Assembly: GCF_014218355.1 (NCBI RefSeq) | Contig: NZ_AP023368.1 | Coordinates: forward strand, 4,899,501-4,963,500 | Length of the DNA: 64,000 bases | Reading direction: 5' to 3' | DNA from: Anaerocolumna chitinilytica | GTDB lineage: Bacteria; Bacillota; Clostridia; Lachnospirales; Lachnospiraceae | Part shown: in pieces, positions 2,562-18,523 of the stretch | Numbering within the stretch: the first letter of the stretch is position 1 | Layout of the letters: the number at the start of each line of letters is the position of its first letter | Program-made: the position numbers and the translations under genes | The notes under the pieces: model-generated | Seen by the model: only the letters and a program-made list of their open reading frames with translations | Told to the model about the DNA's origin: nothing | Databases searched by the model: none

Positions 2562-4912
<2,351 letters not shown>

Positions 4913-4913
4913 A

Positions 4914-5780
4914 CTACTTTTTCACCCCCTCAAACGCCGATAAATGAATATGCGGCACTTGTTTGTCCCTCGATGGCAACTTCATATAATCACCATATAG
5001 CATAGTAAGGTATTTATCATACTCCGTAACTGCTTTAAATTTTATTCCCTCAAATTCAAGTGTGGTAAAACTATCAAGTAACACTCGCGGTATGCCATAA
5101 CCGCATACTTTCGGATTTGGATATGGGTGCGTGTTATGTCGAACTAAAACAGTTTCACGCCTGTTGGCAAGATGAGCAAGAGTGTTATTGAGGCCAAACG
5201 CAAATTTGGCAGGTATTAATGCCACTATTGTCCACCACATTCTTAAAACTATATTTTTTGCAAGCTTTTTCCCGCTCTTTGACCATAATATTTTACGGCA
5301 GCAGAAGCACAATAATCTGTGTAACGACCTGAAGAATTTACTATCCGGTACATTATCAAGCACAAATAAATCAATAAAAACACCTTGGTGATACTTCATA
5401 TGCTCATGACCGGCCCGACGATAAATCGTATTATTACGCTGAATCCTCGGGTAACCAACCATATAAAACTTATCTGTTCGATGTTCTTGTAAGAAAAATT
5501 TTTCGTTAATTAATCCTGATGTATATAACTTAAAAAACTTTTCATAATCTCTCCTGAGCATGATTATATCGATATCATCATCCCAAGGAATAAAGCCTTT
5601 ATGGCGAACTGCACCGAGCAAAGTTCCTCCGTCAAGAGAATAATCAATGTGATTTTCATTGCAAATACGATCAAATTCTATCAATATTTCAAGTTGAATT
5701 GCTTGCAGTTCCTTTAATATCTCAGGTGTTATCTTAATCTCTTTTTTTTCTCTCTCCACTGCAAATCTTATATCAGCCAT
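4914..5780 (-). CDS. LicD-family phosphotransferase
   Basis: Residues 48-73 carry the LicD signature: SLDGGTLLGAVRHKG followed by IPWDDDIDI. This is the nucleotidyltransferase-fold active site with Asp ligands for metal. LicD proteins transfer phosphocholine or another phospho-substituent from a CDP-activated donor to a glycan. The 288-residue length is normal. The ATG at 5780 overlaps the end of the TarJ-like gene by 13 bases. Two CDP-donor-type cytidylyltransferases upstream fit a CDP-dependent transfer. No choline kinase or uptake gene is seen here, so the transferred group need not be choline. Confidence 0.88.
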   Translation of the reverse strand: MADIRFAVEREKKEIKITPEILKELQAIQLEILIEFDRICNENHIDYSLDGGTLLGAVRHKGFIPWDDDIDIIMLRRDYEKFFKLYTSGLINEKFFLQEHRTDKFYMVGYPRIQRNNTIYRRAGHEHMKYHQGVFIDLFVLDNVPDSKFFRSLHRLLCFCCRKILWSKSGKKLAKNIVLRMWWTIVALIPAKFAFGLNNTLAHLANRRETVLVRHNTHPYPNPKVCGYGIPRVLLDSFTTLEFEGIKFKAVTEYDKYLTMLYGDYMKLPSRDKQVPHIHLSAFEGVKK

Positions 5781-6778
5781 CGTCCCACCGTCTTAAAATC
5801 GTTTAAAGTATCTTGTTCAAACCACCGGACAATATCATTTTCATTCTTTATATCAATTGAATCAGATGTTAAAAGCCCAATGTACTTTCTGCATATTTCG
5901 TTTTCGCGAATCATCTTTATCGCGTCCTCAAAATCACTCCTGTCACTTCTACTATTACCTACAAGTTTAAGCCCTTTATCAAGCACTTTCCGAGTATCTA
6001 TACAAACCACATTTTCACTGACACCCATAAGATTTATTACCCCTTGTGGTATTATGCAGTCGATAATCTGTTTAATGGCTTCCTCACTTTTCTTGCCACC
6101 GACACATTCAAAAGCATGGTTGACTGTTAAATTACTTGGTATGTCATCAATATAGTACTTTCGAGTTGCAAATGAAAACTTAGATAATTTACGTGTAAAC
6201 TTACCGAATACATATATTTTTGATTGCGGATATTTACAACGTAGTGCAAGAGCGGTAATAAAACCCATACTGCCATCGCCCCATACACCGATTGAGTCTG
6301 CCGAAGATATTTTCACAGTTTCAAACGCTTTAATGGCACCAAGTGCAACACTTAAAACCTCCGTAAACACATATAAACTTGAATCATCAATGGTTAATAA
6401 CCTGTCACTCGAAATCGCAACGATGTCGCGCATAAAACCATCTACACTGCTTGAGGCAAACTTGCTGTCCTGCCTGTAATTTGCTTTTACATCCGGCTCT
6501 TTCCCTTCATCTAGCGGTAGAAGAACAACTTTAGCACCGCTTTGAAACGTGCCGCTAAAATCCTTTATAACCGTCCCTGTTGCTTCATGGATTAAAGCCA
6601 TCGGAAGTTTTGAACGCAGTATTTCTTTTCGGCGTTGTCCTAAATAGTAACGCTGATCAGCGGCGCAAATTGATAAATACTCAGGACGTACAAGAACAGT
6701 GTCAGGAGCAATCACAATTTCACGTTGTTTCATCTCAATTCGCTTAGTGTCCATAAGCCGATAAATGCGCCCAATCAT
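5768..6778 (-). CDS. TarJ-like ribulose-5-phosphate reductase (medium-chain dehydrogenase)
   Basis: This 336-residue zinc-type dehydrogenase resembles TarJ, which reduces ribulose-5-phosphate to ribitol-5-phosphate with NADPH for CDP-ribitol synthesis. Visible features are the N-terminal metal region SICAADQRYYLGQRR, an IHEATG motif, and the Rossmann part IGVWGDGSMGF. The stop overlaps the LicD start and the start (ATG at 6778) overlaps the TarI-like stop as ATGA. Immediate coupling to a TarI-like gene is the main support for the specific assignment. A different polyol or sugar phosphate as substrate remains possible. Confidence 0.82.
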   Translation of the reverse strand: MIGRIYRLMDTKRIEMKQREIVIAPDTVLVRPEYLSICAADQRYYLGQRRKEILRSKLPMALIHEATGTVIKDFSGTFQSGAKVVLLPLDEGKEPDVKANYRQDSKFASSSVDGFMRDIVAISSDRLLTIDDSSLYVFTEVLSVALGAIKAFETVKISSADSIGVWGDGSMGFITALALRCKYPQSKIYVFGKFTRKLSKFSFATRKYYIDDIPSNLTVNHAFECVGGKKSEEAIKQIIDCIIPQGVINLMGVSENVVCIDTRKVLDKGLKLVGNSRSDRSDFEDAIKMIRENEICRKYIGLLTSDSIDIKNENDIVRWFEQDTLNDFKTVGRWLI

Positions 6779-7491
6779 ACTTTTCGCTCCCGAAGTAATG
6801 CTTCGGCGACTTCTAAATCATACGGATTGATTATCTTCATATTTGAATATTCACCATCCACAAGTCTCATTGAGTAACCTTGTGAAATGTACAATCTAGC
6901 CAATTCTGTTTCACTTTCAATAGATGCTCTGTTGTCAACAACTTTATGAAACATTTCTGAGAGCATTTTTAAATTGAACGTTGAAGGTGTTTGCTCCGCT
7001 AGCATCTTTGCTTTTAATGGTACTTCCGACAGTGTTTTTCCATCATTCGATACAACAATCGTGTCGTTGGTAGCTACTACCGTACTTGCCGCACCGTATT
7101 TCTTAGCAGTTTCAATATTATCATCAATCATTCGTTGGGTAATAAACGGGCGAACAGCATCATGGGTTATTAAGATATCATCATCGTTAATTCCGTAATT
7201 TTGTGTAATATACTCTACGACTGCTTTAACAGAGATCGTCTTATTAATCCCACCAACAATTACCGAAATTTCTGTACCCATATTATCGTACTGATTGATT
7301 AAGTCTTCAGCGTACTGCGTCCAATCTTCAGGTGCAACGACTATTACTTTGCCAACCTTCGCATTTATATAAAATTGTTCAAGCGTCTGAATTATTATCG
7401 GCTTCGAGCCGAGATTCAAAAACTGTTTCGGCAAATCCTGTCGGTGCATTCTCGCACCGACGCCTGCCGCCAATATCCCTGCATAAATCAT
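6775..7491 (-). CDS. TarI/IspD-family cytidylyltransferase (D-ribitol-5-phosphate cytidylyltransferase-like)
   Basis: The 238-residue protein begins MIYAGILAAGVGARM followed by LPKQFLNLG, the CTP-binding loop and conserved PKQF of TarI/IspD enzymes. Further blocks are VVAPEDW, THDAVRPFI and AEQTPSTFN. TarI makes CDP-ribitol. IspD makes CDP-methylerythritol. The neighbour TarJ, overlapping by 4 bases, favours the TarI role. The start also overlaps the HAD gene stop by 4 bases, so four consecutive genes are translationally coupled. Confidence 0.88.
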   Translation of the reverse strand: MIYAGILAAGVGARMHRQDLPKQFLNLGSKPIIIQTLEQFYINAKVGKVIVVAPEDWTQYAEDLINQYDNMGTEISVIVGGINKTISVKAVVEYITQNYGINDDDILITHDAVRPFITQRMIDDNIETAKKYGAASTVVATNDTIVVSNDGKTLSEVPLKAKMLAEQTPSTFNLKMLSEMFHKVVDNRASIESETELARLYISQGYSMRLVDGEYSNMKIINPYDLEVAEALLRERKV

Positions 7492-8195
7492 AAAAGTTCT
7501 TCCTTTGCAATTCGTGAAAACTCGCGGTAATCGTCTATCGGTATAAACCTTATGTCTGAATTGTAAACGTCACTGTCATTGCCTCCTACGCCATAATCAT
7601 CGCCAAAGAATATTATTTCACTTTTGTCAATTCCATATGTGTTCAAATATTGCTCAAGCGCATATAATTTGCAGTATGGTTTAGGTGCAATATCAAACGA
7701 CGACGAGCCACCGATAAATACGTTATACTCCTCAAATAATTTACAAACTCTGTTATAATATTTACGTCTAATAGTTCTATCTGGGTCAAAGGCAAGTTTT
7801 TTATCAAGTGATGCCGTTGTTCCGATTATGGGAAATGTAATCATTCCAGATTCGTGAAATTCTACACTGTCACCATAATATTCTGTGAAACCAAGCTCCT
7901 GACGCAGCTGTTCAACTTTTTCCGCCACTTTTATTCTATCATTTTCAATTTTAATTTTCTTAATAATCTCAATTTTGCCATTCTTTATTTCCGAGTACTC
8001 CATACCATAAAACCCGATAATATCAATTTTAAACCCGTTCATTTGTTTAAAAACACGTTCGCAACCTCCTGCACAGACCATTACAAGCTTATACTTCTCG
8101 GATAATTCACTTAAAACATTCCGGCATTCGGATTCGAGTCTGCTTTTGTGTTGCGTCAATGTTCCGTCTAAATCAAGTGCGACTATTTTTATCAT
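7488..8195 (-). CDS. HAD-IIB hydrolase resembling eukaryotic-type phosphomannomutase
   Basis: The 235-residue protein has the HAD motif LDLDGTLT (residues 7-14, D8 and D10). More tellingly, it follows eukaryotic PMM in block order: SVEFHESGMITFPIIG (110-125), then IRRKYYNRVCKLFEEY, then IGGSSSFDIAP (161-171), then IFFGDDYGVGGND (195-207). In PMM the same blocks read EFRNGMLNVSPIGR, SIGGQISFDVFP and FFGDKTMPGGND (recalled from family knowledge). A PMM would convert mannose-6-phosphate to mannose-1-phosphate, which the ManC gene three genes downstream needs. A plain sugar phosphatase is the alternative. It overlaps the next upstream gene by 23 bases. Confidence 0.75.
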   Translation of the reverse strand: MIKIVALDLDGTLTQHKSRLESECRNVLSELSEKYKLVMVCAGGCERVFKQMNGFKIDIIGFYGMEYSEIKNGKIEIIKKIKIENDRIKVAEKVEQLRQELGFTEYYGDSVEFHESGMITFPIIGTTASLDKKLAFDPDRTIRRKYYNRVCKLFEEYNVFIGGSSSFDIAPKPYCKLYALEQYLNTYGIDKSEIIFFGDDYGVGGNDSDVYNSDIRFIPIDDYREFSRIAKEELL

Positions 8196-8832
8196 TCAAA
8201 TACCTCATCAATGCCTCAGCAATCGTTAAATCTTCAGGATAAGTTATTTTCAAGTTGTGTCGAAAATCAAAGTTCTTATATATTTTACTATCAGGCGGCA
8301 ATTGCTGTGCTGTTGCCGTTATAAGAGAATCAGCATCGAAATACTTATAAAGTAAATCAAATTTAAACGCTTCCGGAGCTTGTACTAAATAATACAATGA
8401 ACGGTCAGTCACTGCTTCATTGTGACTCCCCAAACTGTCTGTAATGTGTTGTGTGGTTATTACCGCATCATATTCATCAAGTTTAGTAAAATAGTTGTCT
8501 ACCAGATCAGGAGTAATGAACGGACGAGCAGCTTCATGGATAAATACATTTTCGCACTCCGGATATATTAACTTAATATATTCAAGTCCATTACGTAACG
8601 ATTGATTGCGAGTTGTACCGCCGGTTATTACTTCAACACTATACCGCTTGCTCAATTGTTCAACATAAGCTGCATTAGCAGATATTATTATTCCATCTAT
8701 TTTACTTGATTGTTTAAGAGCTTCAATCGTATATGCAATTACTTCTTTACAATTAAGCTCATTATATTGCTTTGGTAAACCGCTTTCAAAACGGGTGGAT
8801 ATTCCACCAGAAAGTATAAGAGCAATATTCAT
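8173..8832 (-). CDS. Second IspD/TarI-like cytidylyltransferase
   Basis: A 219-residue homolog of the TarI/IspD family: MNIALILSGGISTRF, LPKQYNEL, FIHEAARPFI and LVQAPEAFKF match the same blocks as the gene at 6775-7491, but the two differ strongly, so they are unlikely to be a recent duplication. It probably activates another polyol, sugar phosphate or alcohol with CTP. The start overlaps the stop of the 852-residue gene as ATGA, and its 3' end overlaps the HAD gene. The specific substrate is not known. Housekeeping IspD is less likely given the setting. Confidence 0.78.
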   Translation of the reverse strand: MNIALILSGGISTRFESGLPKQYNELNCKEVIAYTIEALKQSSKIDGIIISANAAYVEQLSKRYSVEVITGGTTRNQSLRNGLEYIKLIYPECENVFIHEAARPFITPDLVDNYFTKLDEYDAVITTQHITDSLGSHNEAVTDRSLYYLVQAPEAFKFDLLYKYFDADSLITATAQQLPPDSKIYKNFDFRHNLKITYPEDLTIAEALMRYLNDKNSRT

Positions 8833-11387
8833 GGCAGCACCAGCTTTTTAACATAATAGTATATTGATTCCCCTGCATTTGTGTTTGCAGCAGTAATTTG
8901 TTTGTTTATTTTATAACTGTCAGTATTGTATATACAATCAAGAACAACCGGCAAAGAGAACATACCATCTTCGTAAATACGATCATCTGCTTCTCTTGAT
9001 TCCATGCGTTGTAAAAGTTCTTTTGACGCCAGTTTACGTATTTTATTTTCATCTTCTTTTGAAATTGTCAAAACCTTTTCATGTTTTTGATTTGTTTTTG
9101 GATTATACTCAAGAAACTGATAACTTCCACCGGTTATTATATAAAAACAGTCATTAATTAATGAAGCAAATAGAATGAAATTCTCACTATCATATTTTAT
9201 TTCATCACTAAATTCTTCTAAAACTGATACTGTGTCTGTTTTAATGTCAAGTATTAGTGCTTTTTCTGCAAATAATGGAAAAATCCAAACTTTATTATCA
9301 TAATACTTGATAGGATAAAACGCAATGTTTCCGTGATTGATAGGCAATTTATCAATTTTCTTGATTTCTTCTGTCTGTGACAATAATTCTCGTATAAGTA
9401 TAGTGCCATCAGCCATTGTAAAATAGAATGTCTCACCATTTGTACATACAGAAGACAGTTGTATTCCCGTTTTGTTACCGGGCATTTCATAAGCTTCTGT
9501 TGTGTGTGTTTCAGAATCAAAAACCAAAACAACGCTCGCACATGCACAGGGCAGAACAAGTTTCGTCCCATGAATTTCATAATCTATAAAATATCCTATA
9601 TCTTTGTCTGTACGTTTACGTTCAATCAAATCAACCCAATCCGTACAAGCAGATAGCAAATCAGTTTCAGTATTATAGATAAGTATAGCAGGATGAAAGT
9701 AGGGAATAAAAAAAACATATTGGTTAATACTTACCACCCTAAGAAACTTTGCAGCATCGTAAGCTGCATGGATACTATCATCCGATAGATCAAATTTAAT
9801 TTTTCTGAAAATTTTCTTTTCCAAGTCGTACTCTGCAATTTCTTTAGCAGAAAGTGGTGCAAAATATAGTTTTCCATTACATTCAGCAACAGAAGGGTAT
9901 AACCTATTTTTATAGAAATCTTCGTCAGGAAATGTACCTAGCCATTCTACTTTCCACGTTTCTCTATTTACCCGAAATAACGAATTGTAATGGTACGCTG
10001 AAAACCAAAAAGACTTCTCATCAGCATATATGCTTTCTGTAGCAATTGGTAATGTTGCATCACCTATGTTTTGTATCATTATCGGTTTTCCAGTGGCTTG
10101 ATATAATGTAACAAGACTGCTGCTTAAGTCTCCGAAATATATATCGGACATCGCAATAGCTTGATGAAATAAACTTGTGTCATCAAAAATAAAGTTACTT
10201 TTTTTCTCTAATTTCTCGTTATTAGATACATCTGCCTCGTGTTTGTACTCTGCTACAATTTCACGCCACTCTGCTGCCAAATCTGGTCGCATAGAATCAC
10301 AAGTTTGTTCCATCAACGGATGCGGACGCCACAAAAGCACCACATCATTTTGATTCTTGAATGTCTCAATCACAGAGTGGATTTTCTTTACATACTGCTC
10401 ACCGCCTCTGAGAAATTCTGAAACAGTAGTGTTATAAAAAACCACTTTTCTGCCGTTTATTAATTTCACCCATTCCTCAACTCTCGGGTAAATCTCATTC
10501 CTAGTGTCTAGGACAGCATCGAATTTTGGTGATCCCAATGCCAGGATTTTATTCTTCAAATCACCGAATGCTCCTTTGCTATTATTCTCATACTCGACCT
10601 TATTAATAGCATTAATCCATGCTTTTTTCACCTTTTCGGACTGCACAAAGATATAATCCGCATATAACGCACCAGTAGTAGCACACAGTGATTCGTTACC
10701 ACTTTTGACGAAATCTGCATTTTCATTTGATACGAAATAAGGAGAATAACAGAGTAGTCCACAATATTGCTTCAACCGTTTTGAATAGAAATCCGGATGG
10801 ACACTCGTGACAAAGTTATGCTGGTCATACGGTGCCATAAAGAATACCACATCCGGCAGATGCTCCTCAATATTATAAGTTCGCCAGTCTGTCAGATCAA
10901 ATTTATCAGAATAGCAACCCTCAGCTTCAAGGTGCATGTCTCCGATGCTGCCATCCCCTGTTCTGTCAAAGTAAGGAATGGGTATAAAGTAAGCTTCGCA
11001 GTGCTGGTCTTCTTTCGCAGCAAAATATATACTTGCAAGACAGTCTGACATACTCGCTTTGTAGCAAAAAAAAGCTATTTCAATTTTATCAATTTTTAGG
11101 TCATAAAGTGATTCATCAATTTTTTTAACAAGATCAATAAGCTGTTCGGTTGTTGCTTCATATTGCGTCGCTTTGAACAACATTTCGTAGAGTTGTCCAA
11201 GAAGATCAGCAGTCACTGTCCCCTCACCGGCTGTGCTTTCGACAAAATTAAAGATACCTGAAACAAACTCTTGAATCTCAGCACAGAGATCTATAAAGGT
11301 TTGTTCTGAGTGCTTAGGCAGTTCACAGCAAGCTTCATATAACGTGGATATCTGTTCAGAAACCTGTTTCTTTTGCTGTTTTCGCAT
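8829..11387 (-). CDS. Polyol-phosphate (CDP-glycerol type) transferase fused to a beta-propeller-like domain
   Basis: This 852-residue protein has three parts. Residues 1-100 are helical. Residues about 100-450 look like the GT-B fold of TagB/TagF-type CDP-glycerol glycerophosphotransferases, with ILALGSPKFD (281-290), VLLWRPHPLM (350-359) and MSDIYFGDLSSSL (413-425). Residues about 455-790 hold six or so repeats with the pattern of a strand pair such as LYFAP, YVFFIPYF, KLVLPCA, VWIFPLFA and CFYIITGG, each followed by a turn with a hydrophobic-Asp/Asn pair (YNTET, FDSET, LDIKTD, YNPKT). This is a Kelch/WD-like propeller. The ATG at 11387 has AAGGAAGG about 12 bases upstream. Probably transfers a CDP-activated polyol phosphate. 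The propeller may bind the acceptor. Confidence 0.72.
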   Translation of the reverse strand: MRKQQKKQVSEQISTLYEACCELPKHSEQTFIDLCAEIQEFVSGIFNFVESTAGEGTVTADLLGQLYEMLFKATQYEATTEQLIDLVKKIDESLYDLKIDKIEIAFFCYKASMSDCLASIYFAAKEDQHCEAYFIPIPYFDRTGDGSIGDMHLEAEGCYSDKFDLTDWRTYNIEEHLPDVVFFMAPYDQHNFVTSVHPDFYSKRLKQYCGLLCYSPYFVSNENADFVKSGNESLCATTGALYADYIFVQSEKVKKAWINAINKVEYENNSKGAFGDLKNKILALGSPKFDAVLDTRNEIYPRVEEWVKLINGRKVVFYNTTVSEFLRGGEQYVKKIHSVIETFKNQNDVVLLWRPHPLMEQTCDSMRPDLAAEWREIVAEYKHEADVSNNEKLEKKSNFIFDDTSLFHQAIAMSDIYFGDLSSSLVTLYQATGKPIMIQNIGDATLPIATESIYADEKSFWFSAYHYNSLFRVNRETWKVEWLGTFPDEDFYKNRLYPSVAECNGKLYFAPLSAKEIAEYDLEKKIFRKIKFDLSDDSIHAAYDAAKFLRVVSINQYVFFIPYFHPAILIYNTETDLLSACTDWVDLIERKRTDKDIGYFIDYEIHGTKLVLPCACASVVLVFDSETHTTEAYEMPGNKTGIQLSSVCTNGETFYFTMADGTILIRELLSQTEEIKKIDKLPINHGNIAFYPIKYYDNKVWIFPLFAEKALILDIKTDTVSVLEEFSDEIKYDSENFILFASLINDCFYIITGGSYQFLEYNPKTNQKHEKVLTISKEDENKIRKLASKELLQRMESREADDRIYEDGMFSLPVVLDCIYNTDSYKINKQITAANTNAGESIYYYVKKLVLP

Positions 11388-11549: not shown

Positions 11550-12605
11550 TTAATGCTGTTGCAGTTTTTGAATTGCAGGCGGGTAATCTCCGCATTTTTT
11601 ATAATATAGAAAGGCTTCCTCTTGATAACCCAAACATTCATATATTACAGCTATATTATAATGAGCAAGGTATCCATTCACACCTTCTACCTTACATTCA
11701 GGCATTCCTGCTGCTTTTTCAAATTCTCCGATTGCTTCCTGAAATTTTCCGTTATTCATAAATATTAAACCCATCAAAAACACAAAATCCGCCGAAGAAC
11801 TGAACTCATCATATATATTCCATATCTGCAGTGCCTTTTCATACTGTTCTGTATTTAATAAGGAATAGCCATAACTCTCAACTAAATCCCATACATACCC
11901 CAAATCAAGTTTCAAGTCAATACTCAACACTTTTTCAAAGTATTCACAAGCTGTCTTATAATCCTCTTCCATATAGAAGCTCTTTCCCAATTGGTACAGC
12001 AAGTAAGGATCACCAGGTTGCTGCCTGTTCTCTGATTCAAGTAATTGAATATTCCTTCGGGTTTTTTCCTTACGTTTTGCAAGGTCCCCCTCATAGCCAA
12101 GATGCTCAACAACTAAAGGTAAATTATAATATATAATATTTTCCATTATTTTCTGGCACCATGTTATTTGCTCATGAATTTTTCCTTCATATCTATAATA
12201 TTTCTTCGAAAATAATCTTCCTATCCGTTCATGGCTTTTATACTCATGGTTATTTCTGGTATAACGATTGATTAAAAGTACCCTTCCAACCTCATTCGAA
12301 TGATTGCTAAGCAGCATTTCTAATTGGTTTCGATCAATTTCCTCCAACTTTTCATCTCCATCCAGCACCAGAATATACTCACAGTTTGCTTTACTGACGG
12401 AATAATTTCTTGCAGCTGAAAAATCATTACACCAAGGGAAGTCATATACCTTATCCGTATACTTTAAGGCTATGGCCTTCGTAGAGTCCGTTGAACCGGT
12501 ATCCACTATTACTATTTCATCTACGAGTCCAGCCACACTCTTCAAGCACTGCTCCAAATACTTTTCTTCATTTCTTACTATCATGCAAAGACTTATTAGC
12601 TTCAT
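11550..12605 (-). CDS. GT2 glycosyltransferase with C-terminal TPR repeats
   Basis: Residues 1-100 match the GT2 family: MKLISLCMIVRNEEKYLEQCLKSV is the classical start, followed by IVDTGSTDST and the DXD-like LVLDGDEKL. The C-terminal half has TPR-like helices (YLLYQLGKSFYMEEDYKTA, GLIFMNNGKFQEA, AHYNIAVIYECLGYQEEA). GT2-TPR proteins are common in firmicute glycosylation and peptide-modifying loci. ATG at 12605 is preceded by AGGTGA. It ends a five-gene series that follows flagellin, so a role in flagellin O-glycosylation is plausible. SunS-like peptide glycosylation is another option. Confidence 0.85.
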   Translation of the reverse strand: MKLISLCMIVRNEEKYLEQCLKSVAGLVDEIVIVDTGSTDSTKAIALKYTDKVYDFPWCNDFSAARNYSVSKANCEYILVLDGDEKLEEIDRNQLEMLLSNHSNEVGRVLLINRYTRNNHEYKSHERIGRLFSKKYYRYEGKIHEQITWCQKIMENIIYYNLPLVVEHLGYEGDLAKRKEKTRRNIQLLESENRQQPGDPYLLYQLGKSFYMEEDYKTACEYFEKVLSIDLKLDLGYVWDLVESYGYSLLNTEQYEKALQIWNIYDEFSSSADFVFLMGLIFMNNGKFQEAIGEFEKAAGMPECKVEGVNGYLAHYNIAVIYECLGYQEEAFLYYKKCGDYPPAIQKLQQH

Positions 12606-12684: not shown

Positions 12685-13845
12685 TTATAATATCCAATCA
12701 CTTAAAGTTGGATTCACTGATGCTTGTTCCCATTTAATGTTCTTGGATTCTCCGCAATATTTGCAACGTTCCAGTGGTGTTAGGAGAAATGATTTCAATT
12801 TTTTAGTTGTTAAATTCTCATCATAAAGGCTTATATTCTCATTAATGGGTAAACTTTGATTAAAGGTATCATTGAAATATTTTGTCACAAAAGGGAAAAA
12901 GCACGCTCCCAGTTTTCCATCATATAAATTATTACAATGTGCCTGAAAACAATTTAAAAAGACACTTTCCTTATCCGTATCGCCTTTTAAAGACTGCTTC
13001 ATAGTAAATTCTTCAGTAAAGGCCGTGTTATTAGTATACATAATCTCATTTAAATCAAGGAACTCAAGTATACTTTCCTGGCTATTTCTTAATGGCGGAT
13101 ACCAGGATATATGAACAAAGACATCATTCTCTTTAATAGCATCAATTAATTCGCTGGTCATTTGCTTTATCAGTATTCCATTCGTAACAATTGTAATACA
13201 GGAATAGGGGTATAATTTTCTGGTTAATGTCACGTACTTATGTAATTCATTATTTAGTAACGGTTCACCACCTAGTATTCTAATTACACCAATGTCTGTA
13301 ATAAATTCTGATAACTTACTCAAGTCCTTAGCGAATTTTTCATAATCAGTAAAACGAGGTTCTTTAACCAATGGTGAATAATGCTCACAACCCCTACAGT
13401 TTAAATTGCAATGATCTGCAACATGATATTCCAAATATGGCAGATACCCACAATCCAAATAGGGAGTAAACATATTTTCAGCTTCTGGTAAAGTAAAACT
13501 ATCTTTGAGAAAATACTCTCTTGGCACATAATAAATATCTTCTATTCGAATTCCTAACTTAATAAGCTCTGAACCTATAAAGTGAAACCCGGCATGATTA
13601 ATTGTTGGTATCATAATAGCTTCTACCGCATTCATTTTATATAGTCTGGAAAATTCCTCACAGCTAACCACTACAGCATCCAACTCAGAGGTGCATTCAG
13701 AAGAAGCACCCATAAAATTCACAAAACATGCAACCTGCAGTTGTTCCCCACCACATAATTCAATGTATTTGTTATATACATCTGTAATTAATTTATATAA
13801 AAAAGTACTGGCACCGTTTACACCATATACTGCCACATTTATCAT
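12685..13845 (-). CDS. Radical SAM protein with N-terminal Rossmann-like domain
   Basis: The 386-residue protein contains the radical SAM cluster motif C146-x3-C150-x2-C153 (HCNLNCRGC), the GGEP block (IRILGGEPLL) for SAM binding, and a C-terminal CKYCGES that with CFQAHCNN and GACFF may bind a second cluster, as in SPASM or Twitch domains. Residues 1-110 start MINVAVYGVNGASTF, a nucleotide-binding-like fold. The ATG at 13845 has AAGGT upstream. It sits between glycosyltransferase genes downstream of flagellin. Such enzymes can modify peptides or sugars. I cannot assign the reaction. Confidence 0.82.
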   Translation of the reverse strand: MINVAVYGVNGASTFLYKLITDVYNKYIELCGGEQLQVACFVNFMGASSECTSELDAVVVSCEEFSRLYKMNAVEAIMIPTINHAGFHFIGSELIKLGIRIEDIYYVPREYFLKDSFTLPEAENMFTPYLDCGYLPYLEYHVADHCNLNCRGCEHYSPLVKEPRFTDYEKFAKDLSKLSEFITDIGVIRILGGEPLLNNELHKYVTLTRKLYPYSCITIVTNGILIKQMTSELIDAIKENDVFVHISWYPPLRNSQESILEFLDLNEIMYTNNTAFTEEFTMKQSLKGDTDKESVFLNCFQAHCNNLYDGKLGACFFPFVTKYFNDTFNQSLPINENISLYDENLTTKKLKSFLLTPLERCKYCGESKNIKWEQASVNPTLSDWIL

Positions 13846-15273: not shown

Positions 15274-16341
15274 TTATTTATTAATATGTTTCATTCCTTC
15301 TGTTACTGCGTAAAATATTTCTTCCAGACGGTCTTCCAGACGAAAATCATTCTCCACTCTGATTCTCCCCTTTTCAGCTATTGCTTCACGCTCTTCCTCA
15401 TGTTCCAGATAATATTTTACTTTCTCCTCCATATCCTTCATATCCTCGTAAACGATAAGTTCTTCTCCCAGGTTAAATCCAGCAGCAATTCCTTCTTGAT
15501 ACCCTGTCAGAATAAATCCTCCAGCAGCCATTGTTAGAAGCATTTCGTATGGAATTCCAGTTCTGCATTTTCTGGAAGGGATACAGACATTCACAGCTGG
15601 CACTTCTGACTCACTATATAGACCAAGTGCTTTTATTCTGTTTGTAACCTCTTCCCTTTCATTCTGGGTAATAGTATCACATAAAAAATCATCAAGCATC
15701 ACAGATATCTTCTTCTTACTATAATCCCCAGCTCTATATGGCTCATATAATACTTTTCCCATTTCAGTTCTGTATTTTCCATTTATCAGTTTCGGAAGAA
15801 AGTGATATCCATATACTCTTTGCTGTGCTTCAATCAATCCTCTTGTATAACCTTTGGCATACCACGAATAATTATTTTTCAGATAATAAACAGGATAACT
15901 GTCGGTATTGCACAAACATACTGTATCAGACTGTAAACTTCTGTCCCTTAGATTTACCCCAGGTTGAAGGCTGAATATATGTCCAGGATTCTTCTTCCAA
16001 AATCTTTCGGCGATTCTTTCCTCTGCAATGAAAATATAATTCCATGGGCTTTTTATGGTTTCAGAGTACAAAGTATTCCATGACTCCCCCATTTCCCACG
16101 CAATATAAGGAACTCGGCTAATCGCACAACCCCTGGATAAAGCAGGAAAATAACCTATGCTCCACAACATATCTATCTTCTGCTCCCGTATATATTCTGT
16201 CAATTCTTGTACAAATTCCACCTCATAATCCTTCTCCGCTGGGCTTTTGCACAACTCTATTACTTCAATCTCCACATTCAGGAGTCCTTCTTTCACCATC
16301 TGCTCCATTCGGTGCCCTGTTTTACATAGAAGTACCCTCAT
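15274..16341 (-). CDS. CgeB-like glycosyltransferase (second of pair)
   Basis: A 355-residue protein with the C-terminal pattern of the CgeB / Glyco_trans_1_2 family: RTGIPYEMLLTMAAGGFILT, then a conserved helical end VKYYLEHEEEREAIAEKGR. The same pattern occurs in the gene just upstream (RTGIPLRCWDIMASGGFLLT, IQYYLEHEEERKQIAQNG), so the two are diverged tandem paralogs. The ATG at 16341 lies 20 bases inside the upstream gene, showing tight coupling. Members occur near flagellin genes in many clostridia and are likely glycosyltransferases. The sugar is unknown. Confidence 0.82.
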   Translation of the reverse strand: MRVLLCKTGHRMEQMVKEGLLNVEIEVIELCKSPAEKDYEVEFVQELTEYIREQKIDMLWSIGYFPALSRGCAISRVPYIAWEMGESWNTLYSETIKSPWNYIFIAEERIAERFWKKNPGHIFSLQPGVNLRDRSLQSDTVCLCNTDSYPVYYLKNNYSWYAKGYTRGLIEAQQRVYGYHFLPKLINGKYRTEMGKVLYEPYRAGDYSKKKISVMLDDFLCDTITQNEREEVTNRIKALGLYSESEVPAVNVCIPSRKCRTGIPYEMLLTMAAGGFILTGYQEGIAAGFNLGEELIVYEDMKDMEEKVKYYLEHEEEREAIAEKGRIRVENDFRLEDRLEEIFYAVTEGMKHINK

Positions 16342-17518
16342 TATGAATATCCCCCTCTACAATACTTAGCATTTCAGCCAGTCTTTTTTTATAACCATGG
16401 AATGCTTTGACCTTCTCATAGCCATTTTGCGCTATCTGTTTTCTTTCTTCCTCATGTTCAAGATAATATTGAATCTTCTCTAGCATACTCTCTTCATTCA
16501 GAAAATAATCAAAATCTACTCCCGGCTCGAAATGTTTTAGCATATCTTCTTGGTAGTTTGTAAGCAAAAAGCCGCCGGAGGCCATAATATCCCAGCACCG
16601 AAGCGGAATTCCTGTTCGAATTGAGCAAAGCGTTATATTCAGGTTTATTTTGCTATGACGAAATACGATAGGCATCTCATAGTAATAATGAACCGTTCCC
16701 TGGTTAATTGCCTTTTTATACCGTTTGGTGCTGCCAGGGGTATATATTTTTAGCTGAAATCTCTCAGATATCTGTTTTATCATGTTGTGTCGAACCAAAG
16801 AAGTTACCTTGGGAGCAAGATAATAATCCGAATATAGTCGATTTTTATGAGCAATTGTACCATCATCCCGATTTAAAACTAACCCTTGGTCTATGCTTCT
16901 GCTAATATCCTCCGGTTCTAACACATCTTCCAGAATATTAATACCCTGAATCTGTGCCTGTGCCCGTGCTACCGCATCACTGAATCCCTGGAGATAAGCA
17001 GGACTATTTTTATACAAATCTCTCTGAAGGTCTGCCTTCTTATCATATAACTTTCCAACAAATGAAACATCGGAAGTGAACCGTTCAATTTGCTCTTCCG
17101 TTTCTGGGATGGCTTCGAGATATTCTGCTTCTGCTGCTAAGGGCATATAGAACACTTTACGTATTCCTTCCTTACGCAAACTGTCACATAAATTCTGGTC
17201 AAAAGAAAAAATATAACATTCCGGATAATATGCAGTGGTATTCCAAACCTGAAACAGAGGGCTGTCGTAAAGCCAAGCCATATATATAACACCATTTGCA
17301 TGACAGGCTTCAGCAATGCTTCCCATGAAATTATAGCTAAGTACTCTGTCAAAATAATTATAGGATAATACCTTAATCGCCTGTTCCAAGTAAACTTTGT
17401 TATCTCTATCTTTTTTTATATCAAATTCAACACGTTCTACTTCATGTCCCAAATCCTCCAAAGCCTTTACCACATGAAGAGCACCAAAGCATTGCCATTC
17501 AATAAATAGTATCCTCAT
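16322..17518 (-). CDS. CgeB-like glycosyltransferase (first of pair)
   Basis: The open frame extends to 17584, but the ATG at 17518 has AGAGGTGG at the right distance and gives the typical N-terminus MRILFIEWQCFGALHVVKAL, so I use it (398 residues). The C-terminal donor-binding region RTGIPLRCWDIMASGGFLLT and the YYLEHEEERKQIA helix mark the CgeB / Glyco_trans_1_2 family. It is the first gene after the flagellin terminator on the same strand. Transcription could come from read-through or a promoter in 17519-17630 that I cannot identify. Likely role: flagellin glycosylation. Confidence 0.83.
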   Translation of the reverse strand: MRILFIEWQCFGALHVVKALEDLGHEVERVEFDIKKDRDNKVYLEQAIKVLSYNYFDRVLSYNFMGSIAEACHANGVIYMAWLYDSPLFQVWNTTAYYPECYIFSFDQNLCDSLRKEGIRKVFYMPLAAEAEYLEAIPETEEQIERFTSDVSFVGKLYDKKADLQRDLYKNSPAYLQGFSDAVARAQAQIQGINILEDVLEPEDISRSIDQGLVLNRDDGTIAHKNRLYSDYYLAPKVTSLVRHNMIKQISERFQLKIYTPGSTKRYKKAINQGTVHYYYEMPIVFRHSKINLNITLCSIRTGIPLRCWDIMASGGFLLTNYQEDMLKHFEPGVDFDYFLNEESMLEKIQYYLEHEEERKQIAQNGYEKVKAFHGYKKRLAEMLSIVEGDIHNEGTSM

Positions 17519-17630
17519 TCTGCCACCTCTTTCAAACTCCACTAATCCTATAAATACTATAGATTTTTTATGTCTAAGACACATATAAGAATATATCGGC
17601 TATTTTACCTTTCTCCTTAATTCTTTCAAT

Positions 17631-17692: not shown

Positions 17693-18523
17693 TTATCTTA
17701 ACAGAGAAAGTACGCCCTGTGTTGACTGGTTAGCCTGTGCAAGCATTGATTGAGCAGCCTGCTGTAAGATATTATTTTTAGAGTATGTAACCATCTCTTT
17801 AGCCATATCAACATCACGGATACGGGATTCTGCTGCAGTAAGATTCTCAGCAGTATTATCTGCATTAGCAATGGTATGCTCTAAACGGTTCTGCATAGCA
17901 CCCATAGTAGAACGCTGGGAAGATACTTTTGCAATAGCTGCATCAATTACAGAAATCTGATTGGTAGCTGCGCTGTATGCACTTACATTGCTGCTTACGC
18001 TATCAATGCTTAATGCACTAGCCTGCATATCACTGATATTGAATCCGATACTCTGTGCGCCATTTGCACCAACCTGAAGTGTTATCATAGAGCCTGTTGC
18101 AGAATAGTCACCGCTCATCAACACTTTTTTATTGAACTCTGTCTGTGTTGCGATTCTTGTAACTTCGTTTGTAAGCTGTCCTAATTCTTCTGTGATAGCA
18201 GTACGGTCTACGCTGGTATTTGTATCATTAGATGCCTGTACTGTGAGTTCTCTCATTCTTTGCAGAATAGAATGTGTTTCATTTAAAGCACCTTCTGCTG
18301 TCTGAATAAGTGAAATACCATCCTGTGCATTTGTAGATGCTTGCTCTAAACCTTTGATCTGTCCACGCATTTTTTCAGAAATAGAAAGTCCTGCTGCATC
18401 ATCACCTGCACGATTGATTCTGTAACCGGATGATAACTTTTCTGTAGATTTAGCCTGAGCTGATCCTGTAATACCTAACTGTCTGTTTGTGTTGGCTGCA
18501 GCCATATTGTGTTGAATTACCAT
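17693..18523 (-). CDS. hag: Flagellin
   Basis: A 276-residue flagellin with both conserved ends: MVIQHNMAAANTNRQLGI and KLSSGYRINRAGDDAAGLSI at the N-terminus, and NILQQAAQSMLAQANQ ending SLLR at the C-terminus. It is short and lacks a long variable D2/D3 region, so it consists mainly of the D0/D1 core. The middle has several Ser/Thr residues (SGDYSATGSMITL, SVSSNVSAYSAAT) that could be O-glycosylated. The ATG at 18523 follows AAGGAGGA. A sigma-28 promoter and a CsrA-type leader precede it. It stands between the fliS operon and the glycosyltransferase series. Confidence 0.97.
   Translation of the reverse strand: MVIQHNMAAANTNRQLGITGSAQAKSTEKLSSGYRINRAGDDAAGLSISEKMRGQIKGLEQASTNAQDGISLIQTAEGALNETHSILQRMRELTVQASNDTNTSVDRTAITEELGQLTNEVTRIATQTEFNKKVLMSGDYSATGSMITLQVGANGAQSIGFNISDMQASALSIDSVSSNVSAYSAATNQISVIDAAIAKVSSQRSTMGAMQNRLEHTIANADNTAENLTAAESRIRDVDMAKEMVTYSKNNILQQAAQSMLAQANQSTQGVLSLLR

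Follow-up and report, generated by a model that had tools for sequence, protein, structure and literature searches.

The 64,000-nucleotide stretch of Anaerocolumna chitinilytica contig NZ_AP023368.1 analysed here (the window) carries a gene for an 852-residue fusion protein (8829..11387) in which a seven-bladed beta-propeller is nested inside a TagF-like transferase domain. The family to which this protein belongs tracks flagellated genomes, and within it the propeller is gained or lost repeatedly. We consider it probable that the enzyme transfers a small phospho-group from a cytidine diphosphate (CDP) donor to the flagellin glycan, a phospho-polyol being the likeliest group. The gene and its parts, numbered in amino acids (aa) of the protein, are:

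8829..11387, minus strand: whole gene, TagF-like transferase with nested seven-bladed propeller, 852 aa
11100..11381, minus strand: N-terminal four-helix bundle, aa 3-96
10053..11093, minus strand: GT-B-like TagF/PF04464 core, aa 99-445, up to the GKPIMIQ strand
10518..10535, minus strand: GSPKFD motif, aa 285-290, aligning with GYPRND of a canonical PF04464 member
10314..10328, minus strand: RPHPL motif, aa 354-358
10116..10148, minus strand: SDIYFGDLSSS motif, aa 414-424, aligning with SD..ITDYSS of a canonical member
9063..10052, minus strand: inserted seven-bladed beta-propeller, aa 446-775, from the predicted structure
8832..9062, minus strand: helical tail, aa 776-852, its last ~50 residues corresponding to the C-terminal end of propeller-less relatives

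The relation of the fusion protein to TagF is visible both by Pfam profile and by fold. PF04464, the CDP-glycerol glycerophosphotransferase superfamily, matches aa 265-365 with 29.4 bits (cut-off 22.1), and the predicted structure, with a predicted local distance difference test score (pLDDT) of 91.9, has the GT-B fold of TagF and TarL, solved relatives by fold whose reaction is known. By sequence, solved structures gave only weak matches to the whole protein (best E 0.34) and helical-bundle matches to the core profile (best E 0.0068); in ten homologues scanned, PF04464 scored above its cut-off in two, below it in five and gave no match in three. The same model contains seven strand groups, the first blade being made of three strands of at least 3 residues, and its propeller matches solved propellers in structure comparison. 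A preliminary description had proposed a TagF-like transferase and a beta-propeller in this one open reading frame (ORF), and both are confirmed; its reading of GSPKFD, RPHPL and SDIYFGDLSSS as motifs of CDP-glycerol-type transferases agrees with the canonical counterparts of the first and third. The propeller that it had seen in "about six" repeats stands, with a count corrected to seven, and its arrangement of the domains as an N-terminal and a C-terminal half has to be abandoned, the propeller lying inside the transferase domain and not end to end with it. As a whole, that earlier interpretation of the gene is partly supported.

We conclude that the propeller is inserted after the GKPIMIQ strand and ahead of the last part of the transferase domain because of (i), the tail common to propeller-less relatives and (ii), the points at which PF04464 ends. 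Propeller-less relatives (~490-615 aa) mostly share the ...NADGTAGxKIYEY... C-terminal tail of the fusion; a profile of this tail (aa 800-852 of the window protein) was run on 31 family ORFs without a propeller match, a set that includes fragments, one duplicated locus and tail-less forms, and hit 19 of them but none of 620 shuffled controls (E <= 1e-3). PF04464 stops at profile positions 244-296 in the window protein and in those seven of the ten homologues that it matches, and reaches positions 365 and 359 of 367, at the shared tail, in the propeller-less L090 and L091. Other members of the six propeller-less relatives scanned weigh against the insertion: in L046, L035 and L048 the match also stops, at position 291, and L023 has no PF04464 match.

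The fusion protein is not classed as a TagF polymerase because none of the 106 family rows has the HG.P motif, which holds the catalytic His of TagF/TarL-type polymerases (it was counted 14 times in 19 canonical proteins). Compared with the TagF/TarL wall teichoic acid polymerases, it is divergent in sequence, lacks HG.P, has a propeller before the end of its transferase domain and sits in a flagellin locus.

A search with the whole protein found the fusion to be widespread: at least 1216 homologues were recovered (E <= 1e-3; 7993 candidates scored), and among the 120 listed, 116 have alignments that cover 83% or more of the query, the exceptions being P0015, P0016, P0064 and P0098. Sources include Cohnella, Paenibacillus, Desulfosporosinus, Oscillospiraceae, Family XIII, Fibrobacteria, Chitinispirillales, Treponema and Holophagaceae, under database names as varied as hypothetical protein, WD40 repeat protein, streptogramin lyase and CDP-glycerol glycerophosphotransferase; the phage collection gave no match. 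The host genome has a single copy of the gene. Some part of the family model is matched in 70 of 294 genomes of the order and, at class level, in 19 of 293, several weakly.

Flagellin (PF00669, a profile that can also match FlgL) is found in 69 of these 70 family-positive genomes, which include partial and split forms besides fusions, against 119 of the 224 family-negative genomes of the order (Fisher p 4.6e-15, without kinship correction); the exception, G262, has a weak family match (7.4e-4). In another collection, 49 genomes were sampled by way of their fusion loci (50 of 62 such loci, L036 dropping out), and 48 of them have PF00669. Closer to the genes, 20 fusion regions were compared with 20 control stretches, placed at round positions in nine of the genomes that supplied the fusion regions: flagellar markers lie in seven of the fusion regions but in no control stretch. 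The fusion regions were chosen after the flagellin result was seen; L145 and L150 are short, G036 was already known to lie beside flagellin and the neighbourhood of G012 had been inspected beforehand. In an overlapping sample of loci of at least 11 kb, markers accompany 11 of 53 propeller forms, 4 of 9 tail-only forms and 0 of 5 truncated forms; the flagellar profiles were built on proteins of the window, and distant relatives may have escaped them. The 13 fusion regions without a flagellar marker within ~10 kb, and the known reactions of the fold relatives TagF and TarL, would suit an enzyme that builds or decorates a teichoic-acid-like wall or capsule polymer instead of flagellin, surface-glycan genes merely clustering at such loci. 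We regard this as unlikely: of the order's 106 genomes lacking flagellin, 105 also lack the family; the host genome has three further PF04464 matches, all canonical (C1:793631, 796036 and 4457763), that are more apt for wall polymers; and the 20 neighbouring proteins scanned include no wall-polymer export or ligase family.

Divergence is much faster in the propeller than in the core. Median identities between the window protein and other members are 34% in the helical part, 48% in the core, 26% in the propeller and 21% in the tail; with the C-terminal half alone as query, none of 3969 candidates matched at E <= 1e-3, and we therefore hold that this half diverges too fast for a single-sequence protein search. 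Two homologues, P0002 and P0003, form a mosaic against aa 1-852 of the window protein, with the first ~225 residues highly similar and the propeller and tail divergent: identity in 30-residue windows is 83-100% for starts at aa 1-196, 27-67% for starts at aa 451-661 and 10-29% from 676 on, and the two agree with each other at 60-100% along their whole length. The pattern would fit recombination or uneven rates.

Presence of the propeller also varies. A quick tree of 106 core sequences, with Shimodaira-Hasegawa-like approximate likelihood ratio test (SH-aLRT) support only, holds 75 rows with propeller (one of these by length alone), 19 tail-only rows and 12 truncated rows. Parsimony requires a minimum of 19 changes of the propeller label on it, and the starred branches a minimum of 7; neither count separates gains from losses. 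In seven genomes (G143, G173, G178, G193, G212, G246 and G294, several with stops noted), core and propeller are separate open frames on one contig, 456-482 aa long for the core and 353-388 aa for the propeller, and 0.2-20 kb apart. Core and propeller are likewise split on one contig in G009 (10 kb apart) and L051 (3.7 kb apart) and lie on different contigs in G027; L067, L074 and L080 have truncated cores, and the flanking sequence retrieved showed no propeller. In L049:6962-12349 (1796 aa) and L067:11285-13603 (773 aa) the core follows further unknown N-terminal regions. The family gene of G008 is in pieces on both strands, and IS66-like and integrase ORFs, recognised by eye, adjoin it (L100:10458-17212); shufflon-type invertible domain swapping was considered there and dropped, since with these neighbours the copy looks broken.

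The best structural match of the propeller is virginiamycin B lyase, at 10% identity, which would invite the idea that the propeller has an enzyme activity of its own, such as that of a lyase. We find this highly improbable, as the window protein has no match to the lyase family PF24684 at E 0.1, no conserved catalytic-type residue was found in the propeller and, in contrast to that lyase and other propellers, it shows no sign of a lyase site and is embedded in a transferase. Propellers are generic protein-binding scaffolds, and an oligomerisation or scaffold module, for the cytidylyltransferases or an export chaperone, would accord with a propeller that can be a separate gene and is lacking in many relatives. 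Scaffold partners should however be conserved, whereas the propeller outpaces the core in divergence and the genes adjoining the fusion vary, so that a scaffold role seems doubtful. We infer instead that the propeller holds the acceptor, a flagellar glycan or protein.

The surroundings of the fusion gene in the window, by Pfam except where another model is named, are:

4914..5780, minus strand: LicD-family protein
5768..6778, minus strand: alcohol-dehydrogenase-family protein
6775..7491, minus strand: IspD-family cytidylyltransferase a (NF001183, D-ribitol-5-phosphate cytidylyltransferase, 271.7 against a cut-off of 166)
7488..8195, minus strand: HAD-IIB (PMM/Cof-like) protein
8173..8832, minus strand: IspD-family cytidylyltransferase b, overlapping the end of the fusion by 4 bases
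11550..12605, minus strand: GT2 glycosyltransferase with TPR repeats
15274..17584, minus strand: two PF13524 glycosyltransferase-like proteins, which we take to be CgeB-like
17693..18523, minus strand: flagellin, 276 aa

The fusion gene lies 6.3 kb downstream of flagellin, which is followed at higher coordinates by FlgN, FliS, FliD, FlaG and FliW. Genes from 2562 to 11387 are tightly packed, with overlaps or gaps within 2 bases, and run from the fusion through IspD-type b, HAD, IspD-type a, dehydrogenase, LicD and ManC-like to GDP-mannose dehydratase-like. L022 and L026 repeat the series fusion-b-HAD-a-dehydrogenase, L022 with LicD in addition and with HAD and a separated by a gap; L053 has the series minus HAD. 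Cytidylyltransferase b is below the cut-off of every NCBIfam model listed. An IspD-type gene adjoins 18 of the 106 family genes, all forms and the window's own counted; at other loci (e.g. G036) a TagD-type gene, scored with a 130-residue TagD profile, adjoins the fusion, and many loci have neither type adjacent. Because the fusion adjoins IspD-type or TagD-type genes, we see a CDP donor as a recurring theme of its neighbourhoods, the identity of the donor varying. In six genomes (L137-L142, e.g. L139:11381-13627) the adjoining proteins, of 744-750 aa, end in a TagD-type cytidylyltransferase domain, and their first part is methyltransferase-like by eye alone. LicD, dehydrogenase and ribitol-type cytidylyltransferase stand together at 4914-7491 and may form a ribitol-phosphate module, in which the place of the dehydrogenase beside the ribitol-type gene suggests a TarJ-like role. 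A radical SAM protein (12685-13845) lies within the flagellin glycan cluster, and similar ORFs are seen in a number of fusion loci.

Beyond the computed fold, motifs, nested propeller, gene run and tie to flagella, the donor, the acceptor and the role of the propeller may be pictured as follows. Cytidylyltransferase b, with the HAD protein, would make the CDP donor; the GT-B core would bind it through GSPKFD, RPHP and GD..SS; and the propeller would capture glycosylated flagellin or its glycan and present it to the active site, playing the part that the TPR domain has in TagF-like capsule polymerases. LicD, the ribitol-type cytidylyltransferase and the dehydrogenase probably add ribitol-phosphate in a separate step. 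It is tempting to speculate further, though only tentatively, that the propeller is an exchangeable, fast-evolving reader of flagellin glycoprotein, swapped, lost or supplied in trans to re-aim the phospho-polyol modification as flagellins and glycans change. If so, a large and variably named family would be identified as flagellum-linked phosphodiester transferases, their catalytic domain having a nested, swappable insert as its putative acceptor reader. Members with the propeller built in, without it or with it in trans would give a natural series for tests of target choice in such enzymes.

The pairing of transferase and propeller was not found in the open-access literature searched, judged by title and start of abstract, nor was a nested propeller with repeated gain and loss, judged from listings; the preliminary description knew of no such architecture either. 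The family thus seems widespread in flagellated bacteria, yet undescribed, and the logic of a swappable specificity module has, as far as the searches show, not been described for TagF-like enzymes. FKTN and FKRP are LicD-like. ISPD makes the CDP-ribitol that both use (PMC4873967). Decoration of flagellin affects motility, for example in Clostridium difficile (PMC4441256), and a TagD gene was noted in a Geobacillus flagellin island (PMC5109656). The closest known systems are CD0244 of the C. difficile Type A pathway (CD0240-CD0244) and FgtA of Pseudomonas aeruginosa. CD0244 is TagF-like; the Type A flagellin glycan depends on it, and it was proposed to move phosphothreonine from CDP-threonine to N-acetylglucosamine (GlcNAc) on FliC (PMC10714395), likewise a phospho-group passing from a CDP donor to a flagellin sugar; an earlier study of its mutant found a mixture of full glycan and GlcNAc (PMC4441256). 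By family and locus the window holds the corresponding gene set, compared by description: TagF-like transferase (8829-11387), nucleotidyltransferase (8173-8832), phosphatase-like/HAD protein (7488-8195) and flagellin (17693-18523). The Type A nucleotidyltransferase and phosphatase-like protein are, however, described by other homologies than those of the window, no methyltransferase (cf. CD0243) appears among the 20 window proteins of 741-23204 in the Pfam scan, and the text of PMC10714395 available to us mentions no propeller in CD0244 and proposes CDP-threonine as donor. Similar in layout are Cps3D and Cps7D of Actinobacillus pleuropneumoniae, which also combine an N-terminal four-helix bundle, dispensable in Cps3D, with an accessory repeat domain; TagF-like capsule polymerases whose TPR domain is cut cannot use poly(glycerol 3-phosphate) (poly(Gro3P)) as acceptor (PMC11666461). 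The TPR domain of Cps3D and Cps7D is terminal, whereas the window enzyme has its propeller inside the transferase domain. TagF-like enzymes of flagellin modification were thus already known, and the nested propeller, with its gain and loss, is the new part as far as the open-access literature searched shows.
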